Source: a virus. Taken from it: 64,000 bases of DNA. The number at the start of each line of letters is the position of its first letter. The stretch's first letter is position 1. The translations under genes were made by a program, and so were the position numbers. The stretch is from positions 1-64,000 of the IMG/VR virus record IMGVR_UViG_3300036852_000300. One strand, given 5' to 3'. Below, piece by piece: positions 4,585 to 58,029 of this stretch. Under the pieces are notes generated by a model. That model did no database searches and was not told where the DNA came from. It worked only from the letters and a program-made list of their open reading frames with translations.

Positions 4585-5393
4585 CGCGGACCGCCCGGGA
4601 TCGCCGCGCGAAGGCCGTCGTTGCCAAGAAGTTCAACAAGTTGGAGCGGCTGTCGGTCACCTACGTCCCGACGGACGCGATCAAGCCGAACAGCTACAAC
4701 CCGAACCGGCAGTCGCCTGAAGATTTTGAACTGCTGCTCCGGTCGATCGAAGAAGACGGCTTCACCAGCGTCATCACCGTCCAGGAAGGCGTCAACGAGA
4801 TCGTTGACGGTGAGCATCGCTGGCGGGCCGCCCAGGCCCTGGGCCTGACCGAGATCCCGGTCGTCTTTGTCGACATGACCACCGCCCAGCGGATGGTCAG
4901 TACCCTCCGGATGAACCGGGCGCGGGGTAACGAAGACGTCGAATTGTCGGCCCAGGTGCTTCGGGACTTGCAGGCGATCGGCGCCCTGGACCACGCCCAG
5001 GACAGCCTGGCGCTGTCCGACGCGGAGATCAACCTGTTGATCACCAACGTCGCCGCGCCGGAGCTACTGGCCGGCGACGACTTCACCGACGCCTGGGTCC
5101 CGTTCAAGACCGAAGATGACCACGCGATCGACGGGCAAAGCGACACCAGCCTGACCGATCGGGGCGCCCAGGCCCTGCGATCTCGCCAGGCCGCGCTGGC
5201 CAGCGCGGTCACTGAACAGGAACGCCGGCAGGCCCGCGAGGACAACCAGGTCTTCCGGGTCAGCATGGTGTTCGACGGTGATGAAGCTGAGATCGTCCGC
5301 GCCATCCTGGGGCACCGGCCCGCGATCGCCGTCCTGGCGCTGTGCAAGGCGGAGCTGGAACGGCCCCGTCTCGCCACCGACTCACTCACATAG
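4566..5393 (+). CDS. ParB-like nuclease-domain protein (IbrB-like)
   Basis: The 275-residue product has a ParB/sulfiredoxin-type N-terminal domain: the segment VDGEHRWRAA around residues 80-89 matches the conserved ParB box II (GERR/GEHR) that binds the nucleotide. No ParB helix-turn-helix for parS binding is evident after it, so partition is unlikely. The TTG start at 4566 follows GGTGGAGGG and overlaps the previous gene by 19 bases. Together with the 2862 ATP-PPase it forms an IbrA/IbrB-like pair directly upstream of terminase. In this family the pair can act in regulation or nucleic-acid modification; the actual reaction here is unknown. Confidence 0.8.
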   Translation: MPRPILTRTARDRRAKAVVAKKFNKLERLSVTYVPTDAIKPNSYNPNRQSPEDFELLLRSIEEDGFTSVITVQEGVNEIVDGEHRWRAAQALGLTEIPVVFVDMTTAQRMVSTLRMNRARGNEDVELSAQVLRDLQAIGALDHAQDSLALSDAEINLLITNVAAPELLAGDDFTDAWVPFKTEDDHAIDGQSDTSLTDRGAQALRSRQAALASAVTEQERRQAREDNQVFRVSMVFDGDEAEIVRAILGHRPAIAVLALCKAELERPRLATDSLT

Positions 5394-5408
5394 ACACCGG
5401 GACACCCC

Positions 5409-6242
5409 ATGAGCAATTCGCCGACCGACGATGTCGACAACGTCGATATTCCCACCCAGGATGGGCGACAGAACGGCCAGATCAAGCGGCGCGGCCGTCC
5501 CCGCGTCCCGGCCGACGACGTCCGCTGCACCGCCCGGTCCAAGGTCCGGATGCGGGGGAACGACCCAGACCCCAGGTGTCGGAATTACCGCGCCGTCGGC
5601 TTCACCGTCTGCGAGGACCACGGCGCCGCCGCCCAGGTCGGCCTGGCCCACCACAGCACCACCCACGGCCGCTACAGCCGGGTCATGCCGAAGAAGCTGA
5701 CCGAACGCTTTGAAGCGCTGGTCACCGATCCGGATGTCCTGAACCTGTCCCGGGATCTCGCCCTGCTAGACACCCGGCTTGAACAGTTGCTGACCCGGAT
5801 TGATGAGAACGAATCCGAAGCCGACTGGCGCCGGGCTGGCGACGCGTACCGCAAGCTGCGGGCGGCCATGACGTCCGGCGACGGGGCCGGCATCACCGAC
5901 GCCCTGACAGCCCTGGGGCGGGCGTTCTCTTCCGCGTCGGCCGTCGATTCCAACTGGCGCGACATCCGCGACGCCCTGCAAGAACGGCGGCTGATTGTCG
6001 AATCGGAACGGCGGCGGCTGGTCGACCTGCACCAGATGGTGACCGTTGAAGAACTGATGGTCTTCGCGTCGGCGCTGGTCAGCATCGTCAATCAGGAAGT
6101 CCCGGACCCCCGGATCCGGACGTCGATCGCCCTGAAGGTGCGCGGCCTGTTGGGCCGATCGGGTCGCCCGATTGTCACTACCCCGGGGGCGATCGATGGG
6201 CAGGCCACCACGGTCGGCGCTAGGAACGGCGATGGCAGCTAG
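5409..6242 (+). CDS. Putative terminase small subunit or terminase-linked zinc protein
   Basis: The 277-residue product has an N-terminal Cys/His knot (CTARSK, RCRNY, VCEDHGAA) like the C-C-C-H 'HGG-type' domain that precedes many phage terminase genes. A helical middle and a C-terminal helical region follow. It sits directly before the large terminase and overlaps it by 11 bases. By position it is the best candidate for the DNA-recognising small terminase subunit, but the family itself is not diagnostic. The ATG at 5409 is the first good start, 15 bases after the ParB-like stop. Confidence 0.6.
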   Translation: MSNSPTDDVDNVDIPTQDGRQNGQIKRRGRPRVPADDVRCTARSKVRMRGNDPDPRCRNYRAVGFTVCEDHGAAAQVGLAHHSTTHGRYSRVMPKKLTERFEALVTDPDVLNLSRDLALLDTRLEQLLTRIDENESEADWRRAGDAYRKLRAAMTSGDGAGITDALTALGRAFSSASAVDSNWRDIRDALQERRLIVESERRRLVDLHQMVTVEELMVFASALVSIVNQEVPDPRIRTSIALKVRGLLGRSGRPIVTTPGAIDGQATTVGARNGDGS

Positions 6243-17170: not shown

Positions 17171-17316
17171 TGAACGGGCAGATCAGTCATCTCCACACGC
17201 GAATCCGGGGGCTGGGCAGGCCGTTCGACCCGACGCCACCCGCCCCCCAGTCAAGCCTACCGTCGATGGTAGGCAGCGCCCCGAAAACCGCCGATGGCGA
17301 TGGGGGACGCGGATGA
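17170..17316 (+). CDS. Small protein, 48 aa, coupled on both sides
   Basis: The ATG at 17170 overlaps the TGA of the membrane gene and its own TGA (17314-17316) overlaps the ATG of the next gene. The product MNGQISHLHTRIRGLGRPFD continues as a Pro/Ser-rich tail. It contains the near-palindrome CCTACCGTCGATGGTAGG (17256-17273). Coupling on both sides supports a real gene or at least a ribosome-passing leader for 17313. Confidence 0.45.
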   Translation: MNGQISHLHTRIRGLGRPFDPTPPAPQSSLPSMVGSAPKTADGDGGRG

Positions 17317-17720
17317 TCGACACGACGTGCCAGGTGGTCGGATTGGACGCTTTCCGACGACGGGTGCTGTCGCTGGTGCCCCAGGTCGAAGCGGTCGGCG
17401 CGGTAGGGCTGAAGCGCGAGATGGTCGGTGTGCTGGAGGTCTCGCAGCGGCTGTGCCCCGTCGACACGAAGCGCCTGGTCAACTCCGGTCGGGTCGATGA
17501 CCCGGAGATCGGTGGCGGGATCGTCAACGTCTACATCAGCTACGGCGGCGACAACGACGTCCCCTACGCGCTGATCCAACACGAAAGATTGGACTACAAA
17601 CATGCGCAAGGAAAACAGGCGAAGTTCCTTGAGCGTCCATTACTAGAATGGACCAGGGATGGACCTGAAAACCTGATGCGTGGTGTCGCTGGTGTTCTGT
17701 TGCGAAGTTGGGGGCTGTGA
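17313..17720 (+). CDS. Tail completion protein (HK97 gp10-like) with a recoded 3' end
   Basis: The 135-residue product matches the gp10/neck family style: an N-terminal helix, CPVDTKRLVNSG in the middle, and PYALIQHERLDY. From about 17577 to the stop the codons change abruptly to AAA, CAA, AGA, TTA and TTG, and GC falls to about 51 percent by my count. This tail borders a minus-strand HNH gene and was probably brought in with it. The protein probably joins the head connector to the tail. Confidence 0.8.
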   Translation: MIDTTCQVVGLDAFRRRVLSLVPQVEAVGAVGLKREMVGVLEVSQRLCPVDTKRLVNSGRVDDPEIGGGIVNVYISYGGDNDVPYALIQHERLDYKHAQGKQAKFLERPLLEWTRDGPENLMRGVAGVLLRSWGL

Positions 17721-17722
17721 TG

Positions 17723-18352
17723 TCACCCAAGAAGCGGCAGGTATTCCAGCAGTGTTCGGTCCTTCTTTCGGCTGTTGCACGATTGGCAGCAGGGGACCAG
17801 GTTTTCGATCGCGTGATCCCCGCCCCGCGAGACCGGGGTCATGTGATCCATCGTCACCCGGATCAGCGGTCGCAGGCAGTAGGCGCAGCGCCGGTTGAAG
17901 CCGTCGACCTGGGCCTGCCAGTCGGCCACCGTGAACGGGTAGACGGTTGCCCCGCGCACCAGCGCCTGACGCCGACGGTTGCGCTGACGGGTCGGCTCCG
18001 GGTCTGCCAGGTAGTGGGTCAGCCAGCGCGCCCGACTGGCGTCAGGGTTGGCGTGGTAGTAACGGACGTTCTGGGCGCGGACCGCGCCGGGGTTGGCATC
18101 ACGCCAGCGCTGGGTGCGGGTGTTCTCCCGATCGGCGTTCTCGGCCCGCCAGGCGCGTTTCCTGGCCCGCGTGGCGTCGATATCGGCGTGGTATGCCCGC
18201 CGCGCCGACGCAGCACTGATTTGACGGCGTCGTTCGAGGTTGGCCTTGTTCCAGGCCATCGCGCTCGCGACCTTACAGGGCCGGCAGACCTGGCCGGTCG
18301 GGTACGAGTTTTCGGCGGTCGGGTCGGCCCCGCACCGCGAACAGCGCTTCAC
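17723..18352 (-). CDS. HNH homing-type endonuclease, 209 aa
   Basis: An N-terminal zinc knuckle (CSRCG, CRPC) and repeated basic helices (about 40-130) precede an HNH nuclease core: CAYCLRPL, VTMDHMTPVSRGGDH, then LVPCCQSCNSRKKDR, which supplies the catalytic His and zinc Cys. This layout is typical of free-standing phage HNH endonucleases. The GTG start is at 18352. It lies opposite to its neighbours, ending 2 bases after the 17313 gene. Confidence 0.85.
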   Translation of the reverse strand: MKRCSRCGADPTAENSYPTGQVCRPCKVASAMAWNKANLERRRQISAASARRAYHADIDATRARKRAWRAENADRENTRTQRWRDANPGAVRAQNVRYYHANPDASRARWLTHYLADPEPTRQRNRRRQALVRGATVYPFTVADWQAQVDGFNRRCAYCLRPLIRVTMDHMTPVSRGGDHAIENLVPCCQSCNSRKKDRTLLEYLPLLG

Positions 18353-18371
18353 GCCGCAACTCTAGCAGGGA
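17723..18371 (-). mobile_element. HNH endonuclease insertion between tail genes
   Basis: A minus-strand HNH gene splits two plus-strand tail genes. The word GGCTGTGATG, which holds the end of one gene and the start of the next, occurs on both sides (17714-17723 and 18372-18381). The recoded 3' end of the 17313 gene is likely part of the transferred segment. This fits homing with co-conversion of flanking sequence. Confidence 0.65.
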
Positions 18372-18378
18372 GGCTGTG

Positions 18379-18771
18379 ATGCCGGAAGACATCGCGGACC
18401 TGCTGGTCACGGCCGGCCTGGGCACCCTGGGCACGACCCTGGTGATGGGCCGGCTGCCGGAGCAGCCGGACGTCTGCGCGGCGATCGCCGACACCGCCGG
18501 CCGCCCGGCCGCCTGGGTCCACAACGGCGGCGAGCGGCGCTACCCGCATGTCCAGGTCATCGTCCGAGACCGGGACCCCCAGGCCGCCCGGACCCGCGCC
18601 AGAGACATCCGCGACCTGCTGGTAGCGATCCGGGGTGGTGCGATCGCCAGCGTCAACGGCCGGACCTACAAGGCGATCTACGCGATGTCTGAGCCGTTCG
18701 CGATGACCGGTGATTCCAGCGGCCGGAGCTTGGTCGGCTGCAACTACGAATGCTGGATGGGGGTCGACTAG
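18379..18771 (+). CDS. Tail terminator / minor capsid-like protein, 130 aa
   Basis: The ATG at 18379 follows AGGGAGG (18367-18373) and is preferred to GTG 18376. The segment ERRYPHVQVIVRDRDPQAARTRA is characteristic of the phage minor capsid/tail terminator family (lambda U-like position). The protein would cap the tail tube at the head-proximal end. It overlaps the methyltransferase gene by 1 base. Confidence 0.7.
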   Translation: MPEDIADLLVTAGLGTLGTTLVMGRLPEQPDVCAAIADTAGRPAAWVHNGGERRYPHVQVIVRDRDPQAARTRARDIRDLLVAIRGGAIASVNGRTYKAIYAMSEPFAMTGDSSGRSLVGCNYECWMGVD

Positions 18772-37414: not shown

Positions 37415-37759
37415 ATGCAGATCACCATCACCGACCCGGTCAACCGTGACCGACTGCTGACCGATCTCCAGGCGCTGCCCGAAGCGGTCGGACCGCCAGC
37501 GCCGGATGGCCGGGCGTCCAGCCTGGTCTCGCTGTCCTGGAATCCTGATCTCGGCGAGACCTACATCCACCTGCCGGACGACGACCCGGCGCTGCTGGCA
37601 GCCGTCCAGGCCGTGATCGGTGCCCACAGCCCGGCCCTGACGCCGGCCCAGACCTACCCTGATCGCGATCGGGAAGAACTGCTGACGGTCGTGCAACAGC
37701 GGGCGGCGACCGACCCGGCCTACGCCGCGCTCGCAAAGCTGACCCTGGGAGAGATCTGA
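37415..37759 (+). CDS. Fibre-region hypothetical protein, 114 aa
   Basis: The ATG lies one base after the previous stop, preceded by GGGAGACTGAG. The product is a mixed alpha/beta protein (MQITITDPVNRDRLLTDLQA) with a helical C-terminus. It could be a fibre assembly chaperone by analogy with other phages, but nothing proves it. Confidence 0.55.
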   Translation: MQITITDPVNRDRLLTDLQALPEAVGPPAPDGRASSLVSLSWNPDLGETYIHLPDDDPALLAAVQAVIGAHSPALTPAQTYPDRDREELLTVVQQRAATDPAYAALAKLTLGEI

Positions 37760-38061
37760 TGGCGTTCGCTGACCAGTACGCACTTGGGGTCGACCCGGCC
37801 TTCCGCGCCCGGGTCGAGATGGCGCTGATCAAGGCGTCAACGGCCGTGATGGCCGAAGTCCAGAATGTCGACGGGCACGACTTGCGCGCGACCTACGCGA
37901 CCTACGCGCTGAACAACCCGGCCAGCGCCTCCGGCCCGATGGCGATGGCGGTCGCCGGCAACCCGGCCATCACGGCCGAGAGCGTCGATGGCGATCTAGA
38001 GTTCACCGTCAACAGCCTCTTCAGTGCGATGGCGGGTCACAGCACAGGCCCAACGTCGTGA
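37759..38061 (+). CDS. Hypothetical protein with replaced 3' end, 100 aa
   Basis: The ATG overlaps the previous stop. The product is helical, and its last 17 residues (VNSLFSAMAGHSTGPTS) are coded by 38008-38061. The same peptide with one change (PAS) is coded again at 38661-38714 after an HNH gene. The second copy keeps the 1-base junction to the next operon gene, so it is probably the ancestral end and this one the imported, recoded end. Confidence 0.7.
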   Translation: MAFADQYALGVDPAFRARVEMALIKASTAVMAEVQNVDGHDLRATYATYALNNPASASGPMAMAVAGNPAITAESVDGDLEFTVNSLFSAMAGHSTGPTS

Positions 38062-38660
38062 ACATACAGTGCGAGGAGCACAACATGCCTAGTACACTGG
38101 CCGCATGCCGATCAAGGTCTGTCGTGCCTGCGAGAAACCGAAAGATACCGACAACGACTTCCCCAGGAAGCCGGGCGGGCGCTTCGGCGTTGCTGCCGTC
38201 TGCAAGCAGTGTGACAGTGCGCGATCCAAACGCTACTATGCCGCCAACCGCGAGCAGAAACTGGCCGCCCGACGCGCCTATGTCGAGGCGAACAAGGACG
38301 CCGTCTACACCGACAACGCAGCCCGCAACCGGCGCCGGTACGCCAGCGATCCCGACTGGCGAGATCAACGGAACCGTGAGACGCGCGCAGCCGCCATCGC
38401 AATCCGCCGACTCGTCCTATCCCACTACGCCGGCGGCGAGCCCCACTGCGCCTGCTGTGACGAGACCGCCGACGAGTTCTTGCAGCTTGACCACGTCAAC
38501 GGCGGTGGAGGAGTTCAGCGCGCCCAGTCTGGGTCTCGCGGGTCGACCGGCGTCTTTTACTGGCTCCGGCGGAACGGTTTTCCGGAGGGCTACCGGGTGC
38601 TCTGCGCCAACTGTAACTTCGCCCTCGGGCGCTACGGGTACTGCCCACACACCCGCTGAC
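38062..38660 (+). mobile_element. HNH insertion with recoded target-gene end
   Basis: The segment between two 54-bp versions of the same gene end carries only an HNH gene and short flanks. The 54-bp blocks (38008-38061 and 38661-38714) code for nearly the same peptide but differ at several synonymous places, including AGT versus TCG for Ser. This is the pattern expected if the element brings its own, altered end of the target gene. Confidence 0.7.
38105..38659 (+). CDS. HNH homing-type endonuclease, 184 aa
   Basis: The N-terminus has CRACEKP and CKQCDSARSKRYY, a zinc knuckle with a basic helix. The nuclease core near the C-terminus has CACCDETADEFLQLDHVNGG and VLCANCNFALGRYGYCPH. The His in LDHVNG and the Asn in CANCN are the likely active-site residues. 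The gene is in the same direction as its neighbours, 43 bases after the split gene. Confidence 0.85.
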   Translation: MPIKVCRACEKPKDTDNDFPRKPGGRFGVAAVCKQCDSARSKRYYAANREQKLAARRAYVEANKDAVYTDNAARNRRRYASDPDWRDQRNRETRAAAIAIRRLVLSHYAGGEPHCACCDETADEFLQLDHVNGGGGVQRAQSGSRGSTGVFYWLRRNGFPEGYRVLCANCNFALGRYGYCPHTR

Positions 38661-38714
38661 GTCAACAGCCTGTTCTCGGCAATGGCCGGTCACAGCACAG
38701 GTCCGGCGTCCTGA
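38661..38714 (+). pseudogene. Leftover ancestral 3' end of the 37759 gene
   Basis: These 54 bases code for VNSLFSAMAGHSTGPAS and a stop, matching the end of the 37759 gene. They have no start of their own. The TGA at 38712-38714 is one base before the next ATG (38716), matching tight operon spacing elsewhere. It is best read as the end displaced by the HNH insertion. Confidence 0.75.
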
Positions 38715-45267: not shown

Positions 45268-45996
45268 ATGGTGGTCATGGATGATCCGAGACCACTTGTC
45301 AAGCTTTCGACCCCCGAGCTCGCCCGGCTGTTGGGGATATCGCGGTCGACTGTCAAGCGAAGATTCAACGACGCGACCGGTCAGTGGGTCCTGCCGCCGG
45401 GCTGGACCTGGGACACGGAACAGCGGCCGCAGGGCGAGGTCTACGTGTTCTACCTGCCGGCCGACGACCCCCTTCTGACGAGGCCGACCGCCCAGCCCGG
45501 GACGTCCCCGGGCGCCGATACCCCCACGGGGGACGTCCCGGAGGCCGTCCCGGAGGCCGTCCAGGACGCACCGGAGCCGGTCCGGCACGTCGCAGTGGAC
45601 GAAGGCCCGTCCAGCGAGCCCCGGCTGACGATTCCGGAGATTCGCGACGCCCTGATCGCGCCGCTGGTGGGGCGGCTGGCCGACGTCGACCGCCAGGCCA
45701 GCGCCCGGATGGAGCTGATCGGGGCGCTGCGCGAGCAGGTCGGCGGGCTGCGCGTCCAGGTCGAGATGGGTGAACGGCTGCTGGGCGTGAAGGACGCGGA
45801 AGTGGGGTCACTTCGGGTGGCGCTAGCGTCGCAGGAGCAGCTTACGGAGGAGCTACGCCAGCTACTGGCAGTCGAACGGGAGGCGCGTGGACGCGCCGAG
45901 AATCGGGTGTCTGCGCTTGAAATAGAATTGCAACGTCCGTCGTTCTGGCGACGACTTCTGGCAGTACTGTCCGGACATCGGGGGTCGACCGGCTAG
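45268..45996 (+). CDS. Helix-turn-helix protein with coiled coil, 242 aa
   Basis: Residues 14-36 (STPELARLLGISRSTVKRRF) form a helix-turn-helix. A Pro-rich linker (70-120) and a long coiled coil (about 130-220) lead to an amphipathic end FWRRLLAVLSG. The layout resembles plasmid KfrA-like or segregation-type DNA-binding proteins. The start may be ATG 45268 or ATG 45277. It stands alone on the plus strand, converges on the early operon with a 4-base stop overlap, and its control region has three palindromes. It may be a regulator or a maintenance protein. Confidence 0.75.
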   Translation: MVVMDDPRPLVKLSTPELARLLGISRSTVKRRFNDATGQWVLPPGWTWDTEQRPQGEVYVFYLPADDPLLTRPTAQPGTSPGADTPTGDVPEAVPEAVQDAPEPVRHVAVDEGPSSEPRLTIPEIRDALIAPLVGRLADVDRQASARMELIGALREQVGGLRVQVEMGERLLGVKDAEVGSLRVALASQEQLTEELRQLLAVEREARGRAENRVSALEIELQRPSFWRRLLAVLSGHRGSTG

Positions 45997-56991: not shown

Positions 56992-58029
56992 CTAGAACCT
57001 CTTGTTCTCGCGGATGTTCTGCTTCTGGGCGCGGGTCCCCCCACCGTGGCGGGTGCCGTCGTACGGGCGTTCGACCGGCGAGGCCCCGTAGAAGCGGCCG
57101 CGTCCAGCCTGACGGTCCCGGGTCTCCAGGAAGCGAGACGGCGGACGATCGTCGCCCCGGGTGGCGGCGGCAAGCTGGCCAGCCCTGATCGGATTCTTGC
57201 CCAGCCGATTCAGGGCACCGCGCCTGGCCTTGTCGATCCCGCGCACCCCGTCGCCGGCCAGGTAGGTCACCGACGCCATGATCTCGTCGGCGCCGATCTC
57301 GGCGACCGCTTCCTCCAGCAGCCGGACCTGGGTCGGATTCAGGGTCGGGTGCGCCGCCCCCCACTCCACGGCGTAGTGGTCCATGACGGCCTGGGCACCC
57401 GGCGACAGGGCGATCGCCGACGGAGACGGCCGTGGCTTCGGCGGCTTTGATGTCGAAACTTCTTGCGAAGAAAATTCACCTTCTGTCGCGCCGCCGGGAC
57501 CGGCCGGTTGCGAAGCAACCGCCGGTCTTTTTATCTCCGGAGTCTCCGGATCCGGTCTCCGGTTAAGATAACCGTCATTTTTTGGCCGGTGTGACCGTCC
57601 ATTTTCTGACGGTGTCGCGTCATTTTTTGGCCGGTGTCCACCGTCCCGATCCGAGACACCGTCATTTTTTGGCCGGTGTCCAACCTGTTCGCCCGGATCG
57701 ATCGGCCAGTACGCCTTCGCCTGGGTCGGACCGGTCCGCTTCTGGCCCAGTAACCCGCAGTCGACCAGGGGCTTGACCAGCGCCCGGACGGTCCGGGTCT
57801 CGCGGCCGACTAGCTGGGCTAGCTCGCCGTGGGACAGGCGGCAGGTCCCGGTCTCATCGCGCCACGCCTGGTCGGCGATGACCAGGTACAGGATCTTGAG
57901 CTGGGGGGTCAGCGTCAGGTCGTACAGCATCGCCTTGCGCAGGATCACGAACGGCTCAACCATGCGCAGTCCCGGCTGTCCGGTCTCGCGGGGGGTGTAT
58001 TCGATCGGCAGCTCATGTGCGACCACCAT
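56992..58029 (-). CDS. Replication initiator, lambda O-like, 345 aa
   Basis: The N-terminal 115 residues form a winged-helix domain (LTLTPQLKILYLVIADQAWR, LSHGELAQLVGRETRTVRAL). A linker holds three HRPKND repeats, a Ser/Pro-rich hinge follows, and a DnaD-like C-terminal domain (TQVRLLEEAVAEIGADEIMA) completes it. The linker DNA contains 19-bp iteron-like repeats. Directly downstream is the helicase loader, as in lambda O-P. The N-domain probably binds the repeats in its own gene. Confidence 0.82.
   Translation of the reverse strand: MVVAHELPIEYTPRETGQPGLRMVEPFVILRKAMLYDLTLTPQLKILYLVIADQAWRDETGTCRLSHGELAQLVGRETRTVRALVKPLVDCGLLGQKRTGPTQAKAYWPIDPGEQVGHRPKNDGVSDRDGGHRPKNDATPSENGRSHRPKNDGYLNRRPDPETPEIKRPAVASQPAGPGGATEGEFSSQEVSTSKPPKPRPSPSAIALSPGAQAVMDHYAVEWGAAHPTLNPTQVRLLEEAVAEIGADEIMASVTYLAGDGVRGIDKARRGALNRLGKNPIRAGQLAAATRGDDRPPSRFLETRDRQAGRGRFYGASPVERPYDGTRHGGGTRAQKQNIRENKRF
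57574..57679. repeat. Iteron-like repeats inside the initiator gene, candidate origin
   Basis: The 19-mer GTCATTTTTTGGCCGGTGT (plus strand) is exact at 57574-57592, 57619-57637 and 57661-57679, with a 14/19 copy at 57597-57615. Starts are spaced about 22, 22 and 42 bases, so copies face the same side of the helix. The T6 run and the AT-richer flank (TTAAGATAACC at 57563-57573, TTTTTATC near 57528) stand out in this GC-rich DNA and could be the unwinding region. Confidence 0.8.

Follow-up and report, generated by a model that had tools for sequence, protein, structure and literature searches.

An HNH endonuclease gene inserted between the gp10-like and tail terminator genes of a GC-rich phage, beside a low-GC gene end

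How does an endonuclease gene come to stand, in antisense orientation, between two closely packed structural genes of a phage, and does it bring with it the unusual gene end on which it abuts? The question is raised by a locus in the 86,416-bp IMG/VR virus record IMGVR_UViG_3300036852_000300, of which positions 1–64000 (the window, meaning the whole stretch of 64 kb that was analysed) were studied. An earlier note on this DNA had proposed a general rule, namely that HNH elements replace the end of the upstream gene with foreign-coded sequence. The locus comprises the following features.

17313–17720, plus strand: gp10-like / Neck1 minor capsid (tail completion) gene, 135 aa; phrog_5, E 0.0025
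17577–17720, plus strand: low-GC recoded 3' end of the gp10-like gene, starting at codon 88/89 and running to the stop, delimited by change point and GC3
17710–17722, plus strand: left repeat copy GGGGGCTGTGATG, gp10 stop plus fossil start
17723–18352, minus strand: HNH endonuclease gene with a GTG start, in antisense to the late operon; its stop codon adjoins the left repeat
18353–18381, plus strand: candidate remnant of the native gp10 end, read from the sequence as in-frame AATLAGRL followed by a stop
18369–18381, plus strand: right repeat copy GGAGGCTGTGATG, ribosome site, fossil stop and tail terminator start codon
18379–18771, plus strand: tail terminator gene, 130 aa; Pfam Phage_tail_terminator_6, E 1.3e-12

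The identity of the gp10-like gene is supported by tblastn matches to minor head proteins of Streptomyces, Gordonia and Arthrobacter phages and by synteny, the order being stopper, gp10-like gene and tail terminator. The HNH gene matches Pfam HNH (PF01844; E 1.9e-12, 47.6 bits against a cut-off of 21.4) and the endonuclease VII family phrog_1035 (1.7e-18), and its product retains an intact HNH motif and resembles the solved HNH endonuclease 4h9d. It is the one PF01844 gene of the whole record, a second and more diverged HNH/endonuclease VII-like gene of the same phage being found at 38105–38659.

The HNH insertion and its flanking repeat

The gp10-like and tail terminator genes of actinophage relatives abut or overlap. 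In the best-covered neck relative from the search with the major capsid protein (MCP), L044, the gp10-like gene (5231–5590) overlaps the terminator gene (5587–5979) without an HNH gene, and the terminator is 130 aa long, equal to that in the window. By a simple motif count, an overlapping-type stop/start junction ends 38 of the 51 gp10-family genes examined. PF01844 genes are present in only four of 50 gp10-family records (partial records, scored for presence per record), so that an HNH gene at the gp10/terminator junction is not the norm of the family. In relatives, then, the two neighbours of the HNH gene lie side by side, which identifies that gene as an insertion; its entry at a gene junction is borne out both by this gene order and by the remains of a stop/start junction on its two sides. 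No close HNH-free relative of this exact locus was found in the collections searched.

These remains take the form of a short direct repeat. The window contains exactly two copies of GGCTGTGATG, at 17713–17722 and 18372–18381, and the full 86-kb record adds no further one; they flank the HNH gene, as the earlier note had observed. The match extends to 12 of 13 nt (17710–17722 and 18369–18381), the extended repeat reading GG[G/A]GGCTGTGATG and including the stop/start overlap TGATG. A 12/13 match in the same register is found in 5 of 15,875 other stop-region/start-region pairs of this phage, and a looser 10-mer test puts the chance at about 1%. The final TG of the left copy now serves no gene, and the TG ahead of the ATG in the right copy has lost its role as a stop; these unused TGs mark the copies as fossils of a single ancestral stop/start junction. 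The GGGAGG ahead of the tail terminator ATG comes from the right copy.

Two other kinds of mobile element were considered and rejected. An intron- or intein-borne endonuclease does not match the arrangement, since both neighbouring reading frames are complete and the HNH gene lies between them on the other strand, and an insertion sequence or transposon does not match it either, as the edges are without inverted repeats and the HNH gene is the only gene present.

The low-GC end of the gp10-like gene

The GC content of 17577–17720 is 0.507, in agreement with the figure of about 51 percent given earlier, compared with 0.659 in the first part of the gp10-like gene and 0.683 in the window, and the gp10-like end contains one of the two lowest-GC 145-nt windows in the 64 kb. 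A codon-usage scan along 17313–17720, as the earlier note had suggested, located a sharp shift at codon 88, with a GC3 of 0.886 before and 0.468 after. This change point was matched by none of 5000 permutations, and the gene end is indeed abruptly recoded. When all 127 called genes were scanned with a 46-codon window (19,219 window positions; GC3 averaging 0.87, sd 0.07), the gp10-like end, at 0.46 over a 46-codon window, was the second-lowest tract, the lowest lying mid-gene in the replication initiator. Among the 119 genes long enough to score, the gp10-like gene shows the biggest GC3 drop in the last 40 codons. The dip had been described as running exactly up to the HNH gene; instead, GC is also reduced (0.55–0.58) over about 80 nt of the HNH gene's 3' end, where GC3 is 11/17 in the last 17 codons (binomial p about 0.02, a marginal support). 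Taken whole, the HNH gene, with a GC3 of 0.84, matches the GC-rich composition of the phage at large.

The scan also brought out two tracts elsewhere. The replication-initiator-like gene (56992–58029, minus strand; phrog_270, O-like) has its low-GC3 middle at about 57575–57680, where GGACACCGGCCAAAAAATGACG or a close variant occurs three times; this is probably an iteron origin inside the initiator gene in the style of lambda O. At the end of the gene at 45268–45996, GC3 is 0.52 over a 46-codon window; a convergent gene follows, and no HNH gene was called next to it.

For comparison with the gp10 family, whose alignment was too divergent for a locus search, the motif YAxIQHExL...H..G of the family was turned into a DNA pattern, and 51 IMG/VR loci were collected with it. 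The change in GC3 from the N-terminal to the C-terminal part is +0.02 ± 0.077 in these genes, with a minimum of −0.21, against −0.39 in the window gene; the relatives are distant and several contigs are near-duplicates, so that they represent fewer than 51 independent cases. The low-GC end is a peculiarity of the window's gp10-like gene and no family trait. Alignments of the gp10-like protein cross the recoding boundary (L044, residues 42–113; PapayaSalad, 25–120; and others), and the C-terminal part retains the family motif QHE..L...H..G..AK, so the end is recoded but homologous. The nearest gp10 proteins are encoded on contigs with GC of 0.49–0.65. Because the protein is too short and diverged for phylogeny, its two halves were compared by identity rank, which revealed no clear difference in ancestry, the relative L080 standing high for both.

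A DNA search for a donor of the low-GC tract found none, and phage records yielded no DNA match to the window region. Single-protein IMG/VR scans with gp10, tail terminator and HNH returned no relatives, a search for prophages in GTDB genomes by capsid or tail-tube pattern returned none, and a tail-tube search retrieved relatives in which a gp10 homologue was undetectable.

Gene ends beside other HNH genes

The proposed rule was examined against the second HNH gene of the same phage, which belongs to an element (37759–38714) with the order carried end, HNH gene, displaced end of 54 nt.

38008–38061, plus strand: carried end of gene 37759–38061, VNSLFSAMAGHSTGPTS followed by a stop
38105–38659, plus strand: second HNH/endonuclease VII-like gene; phrog_2255, E 3.4e-12
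38661–38714, plus strand: displaced original gene end, VNSLFSAMAGHSTGPAS followed by a stop, agreeing with the carried end at 44 of 54 nt

The carried and displaced ends have, by reading, the same GC3 (13/17 each), so this element shows no foreign codons. At ten other HNH genes, a flanking repeat or displaced end was sought and none found except for one 11-nt match.

Capsid gene ends were scored in 37 relatives, the largest GC3 drops being −0.36 in L046, −0.32 in L028 and −0.15 in L048. An HNH gene stands directly after the capsid gene in L028 and L048 and none does in L046, and L028 and L046 provide an occupied/empty pair for this insertion.

L028, 4539–5638: HNH insertion after the capsid gene, occupied site
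L046, 10011–10200: the same site, empty

The MCP of the two is 100% identical in protein and 95% in DNA, and the sequences are 95% identical in DNA on the left and 99% over 127 nt on the right of the insertion site, which holds about 940 bp in L028 versus 15 bp in L046. Both capsid ends are equally low in GC (GC3 0.12 in the last 16 codons), the low GC continuing into the intergenic region, and L030, 81% identical, has no low-GC capsid end. As HNH-free L046 shares the low-GC end with L028, a low-GC gene end is possible without an HNH gene; this end is either older than the HNH gene or a scar kept after L046 lost it. What the earlier note had named as refuting its idea, a low-GC end shared by an HNH-free relative, is thus seen here, though at the capsid site and not at gp10.

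Regarding side features of these relatives, a TATAAT-like box and a hairpin precede the HNH gene in the L028 insert, and the related contigs L021 and L022 (IMG/VR 3300042814_000132 and 3300043313_001828) have three to four HNH genes apiece, several of them interspersed with head-neck genes.

Eight further HNH-adjacent gene ends (gp10 and L028 excluded; related or sequence-similar contexts) show changes of −0.16 to +0.11. HNH-adjacent ends average −0.12 versus −0.02 for 138 other genes, with p about 0.05 when the discovery case is left out, and this wider survey is suggestive, falling short of a rule. The general rule was not upheld: L046 keeps its low-GC end without an HNH gene, most other HNH-adjacent ends are unremarkable, the end carried at 38 kb does not differ in GC3 from the one displaced, and the HNH gene at 17.7 kb is GC-rich, unlike the gene end that it supposedly brought along.

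Proposed origin, alternatives and known systems

The explanation that we prefer, with confidence about evenly balanced, is HNH insertion by junction duplication together with a low-GC recombination tract, possibly arising by homing co-conversion. A free-standing HNH (endonuclease VII-like) gene with putative homing activity entered the TGATG overlap of the gp10-like and tail terminator genes in antisense orientation, and about 13 nt around the junction were duplicated in the process, so that the gp10-like gene still ends on its own stop and the terminator gene still has its ribosome site and ATG. The low-GC gp10-like end would be a tract of about 145–230 bp acquired by homologous recombination from a lower-GC related phage, with preservation of the reading frame and of the family's conserved C-terminus. 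The simplest link between tract and HNH gene would be a co-conversion tract from the repair of an HNH cut in the conserved gene end. The HNH element is of a known kind: homing of free-standing endonucleases in phages converts flanking sequence (PMC2988022), such endonucleases favour insertion near conserved genes (PMC10448857), and HNH marker exclusion is known in Skunavirus (PMC12724721). A joint arrival of tract and HNH gene from one low-GC donor is improbable, since the HNH gene is like the surrounding phage in composition, which makes a single low-GC element carrying both unlikely. An exception would be a low-GC donor that already had a matching HNH gene, with the exchange ending inside that gene; the dip at its 3' end would fit such a course.

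The foremost alternative, itself unlikely, is that the low-GC tract stems from an unrelated mosaic exchange and stands beside the HNH gene by coincidence. Low-GC3 tracts do occur in this phage away from HNH genes, as at the end of 45268–45996, tract and HNH gene are separated in the L028/L046 pair, and other HNH-adjacent ends differ weakly from background. Mere coincidence must nevertheless account for the biggest 3'-end drop of 119 genes falling exactly on the HNH side, the positional chance of which we put at roughly 1–2%.

Second in order among the alternatives, and likewise unlikely, is a single mobile element that carried a foreign gp10 end along with the HNH gene, entered the gene body and displaced the native end. 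The 38-kb element of the same phage has just such a carried end, HNH gene and displaced end, hybrids of atp6, atp9, cox2 and nad3 in Glomus and of atp6 in Allomyces offer a precedent for endonuclease-carried gene ends (PMC3630166), and the 12/13-nt repeat and candidate 27–29-nt remnant to the right of the HNH gene are consistent with this course. However, the native remnant is at most 29 nt, where the 38-kb element retains 54 nt and about 140 nt would be expected, the composition of the HNH gene is unlike that of the tract, the low-GC end at the L028 site is present without an HNH gene, and the ten other HNH genes, one 11-nt match aside, show neither flanking repeat nor displaced end. That the HNH genes here move as composite elements with replacement 3' ends of their own, the displaced end being still in place at 38 kb and eroded to a 13-nt remnant at 17.7 kb, and so form a phage equivalent of the C-terminus-carrying mobile ORFs of mitochondria, is more doubtful still.

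It is improbable that the low-GC end is functional in place, whether as an AT-rich control element, as a terminator for the antisense HNH transcript or as an altered target site resistant to homing. Homing inherently involves altered cut sites that shield the carrier, which counts in its favour, and the low-GC3 tract at 57.4–57.7 kb of the same phage is explained by origin-like iterons; however, 17200–18700 contains no terminator or sigma-70 promoter match, and none of the 51 gp10-family genes has a comparable dip. Weakest, and very improbable, is an assembly chimera in which two phages were fused within the conserved gp10 gene: conceivable as such a join is in an IMG/VR virus contig, the phage's own composition resumes inside the HNH gene, and on either side the reading frame and the order of genes are undisturbed.

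The locus illustrates how, by duplicating the stop/start, a selfish nuclease gene can settle in an assembly operon of tightly overlapping genes and leave both neighbours unbroken, and it indicates that short gene-end tracts are probably swapped between phages of differing GC. Were it true that HNH elements carry gene ends, essential phage genes would be recoded as the elements spread.

Among known systems, the free-standing Seg and Mob homing endonucleases of T-even phages resemble the locus in that the nuclease gene neighbours a conserved structural gene and is missing in relatives, and in the exchange of flanking sequence (co-conversion and marker exclusion). Unlike these, the HNH gene here is antisense at a stop/start overlap, and its cutting and biased inheritance are putative. 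The mobile ORFs of fungal mitochondria (Allomyces atp6; Glomus atp6, atp9, cox2 and nad3) share an endonuclease gene at a gene end and a candidate in-frame replacement end, and the 38-kb element is like them in having kept its displaced native end (PMC3630166), whereas the 17.7-kb locus has no clear displaced end and a nuclease gene that differs in composition from the tract. The HNH endonucleases known from places where phage genomes recombine (PMC10448857; Skunavirus HNHEs, PMC12724721) are similar in that the HNH gene marks the edge of an exchange close to essential genes, though the exchanged tract here would span only about 150–230 bp.
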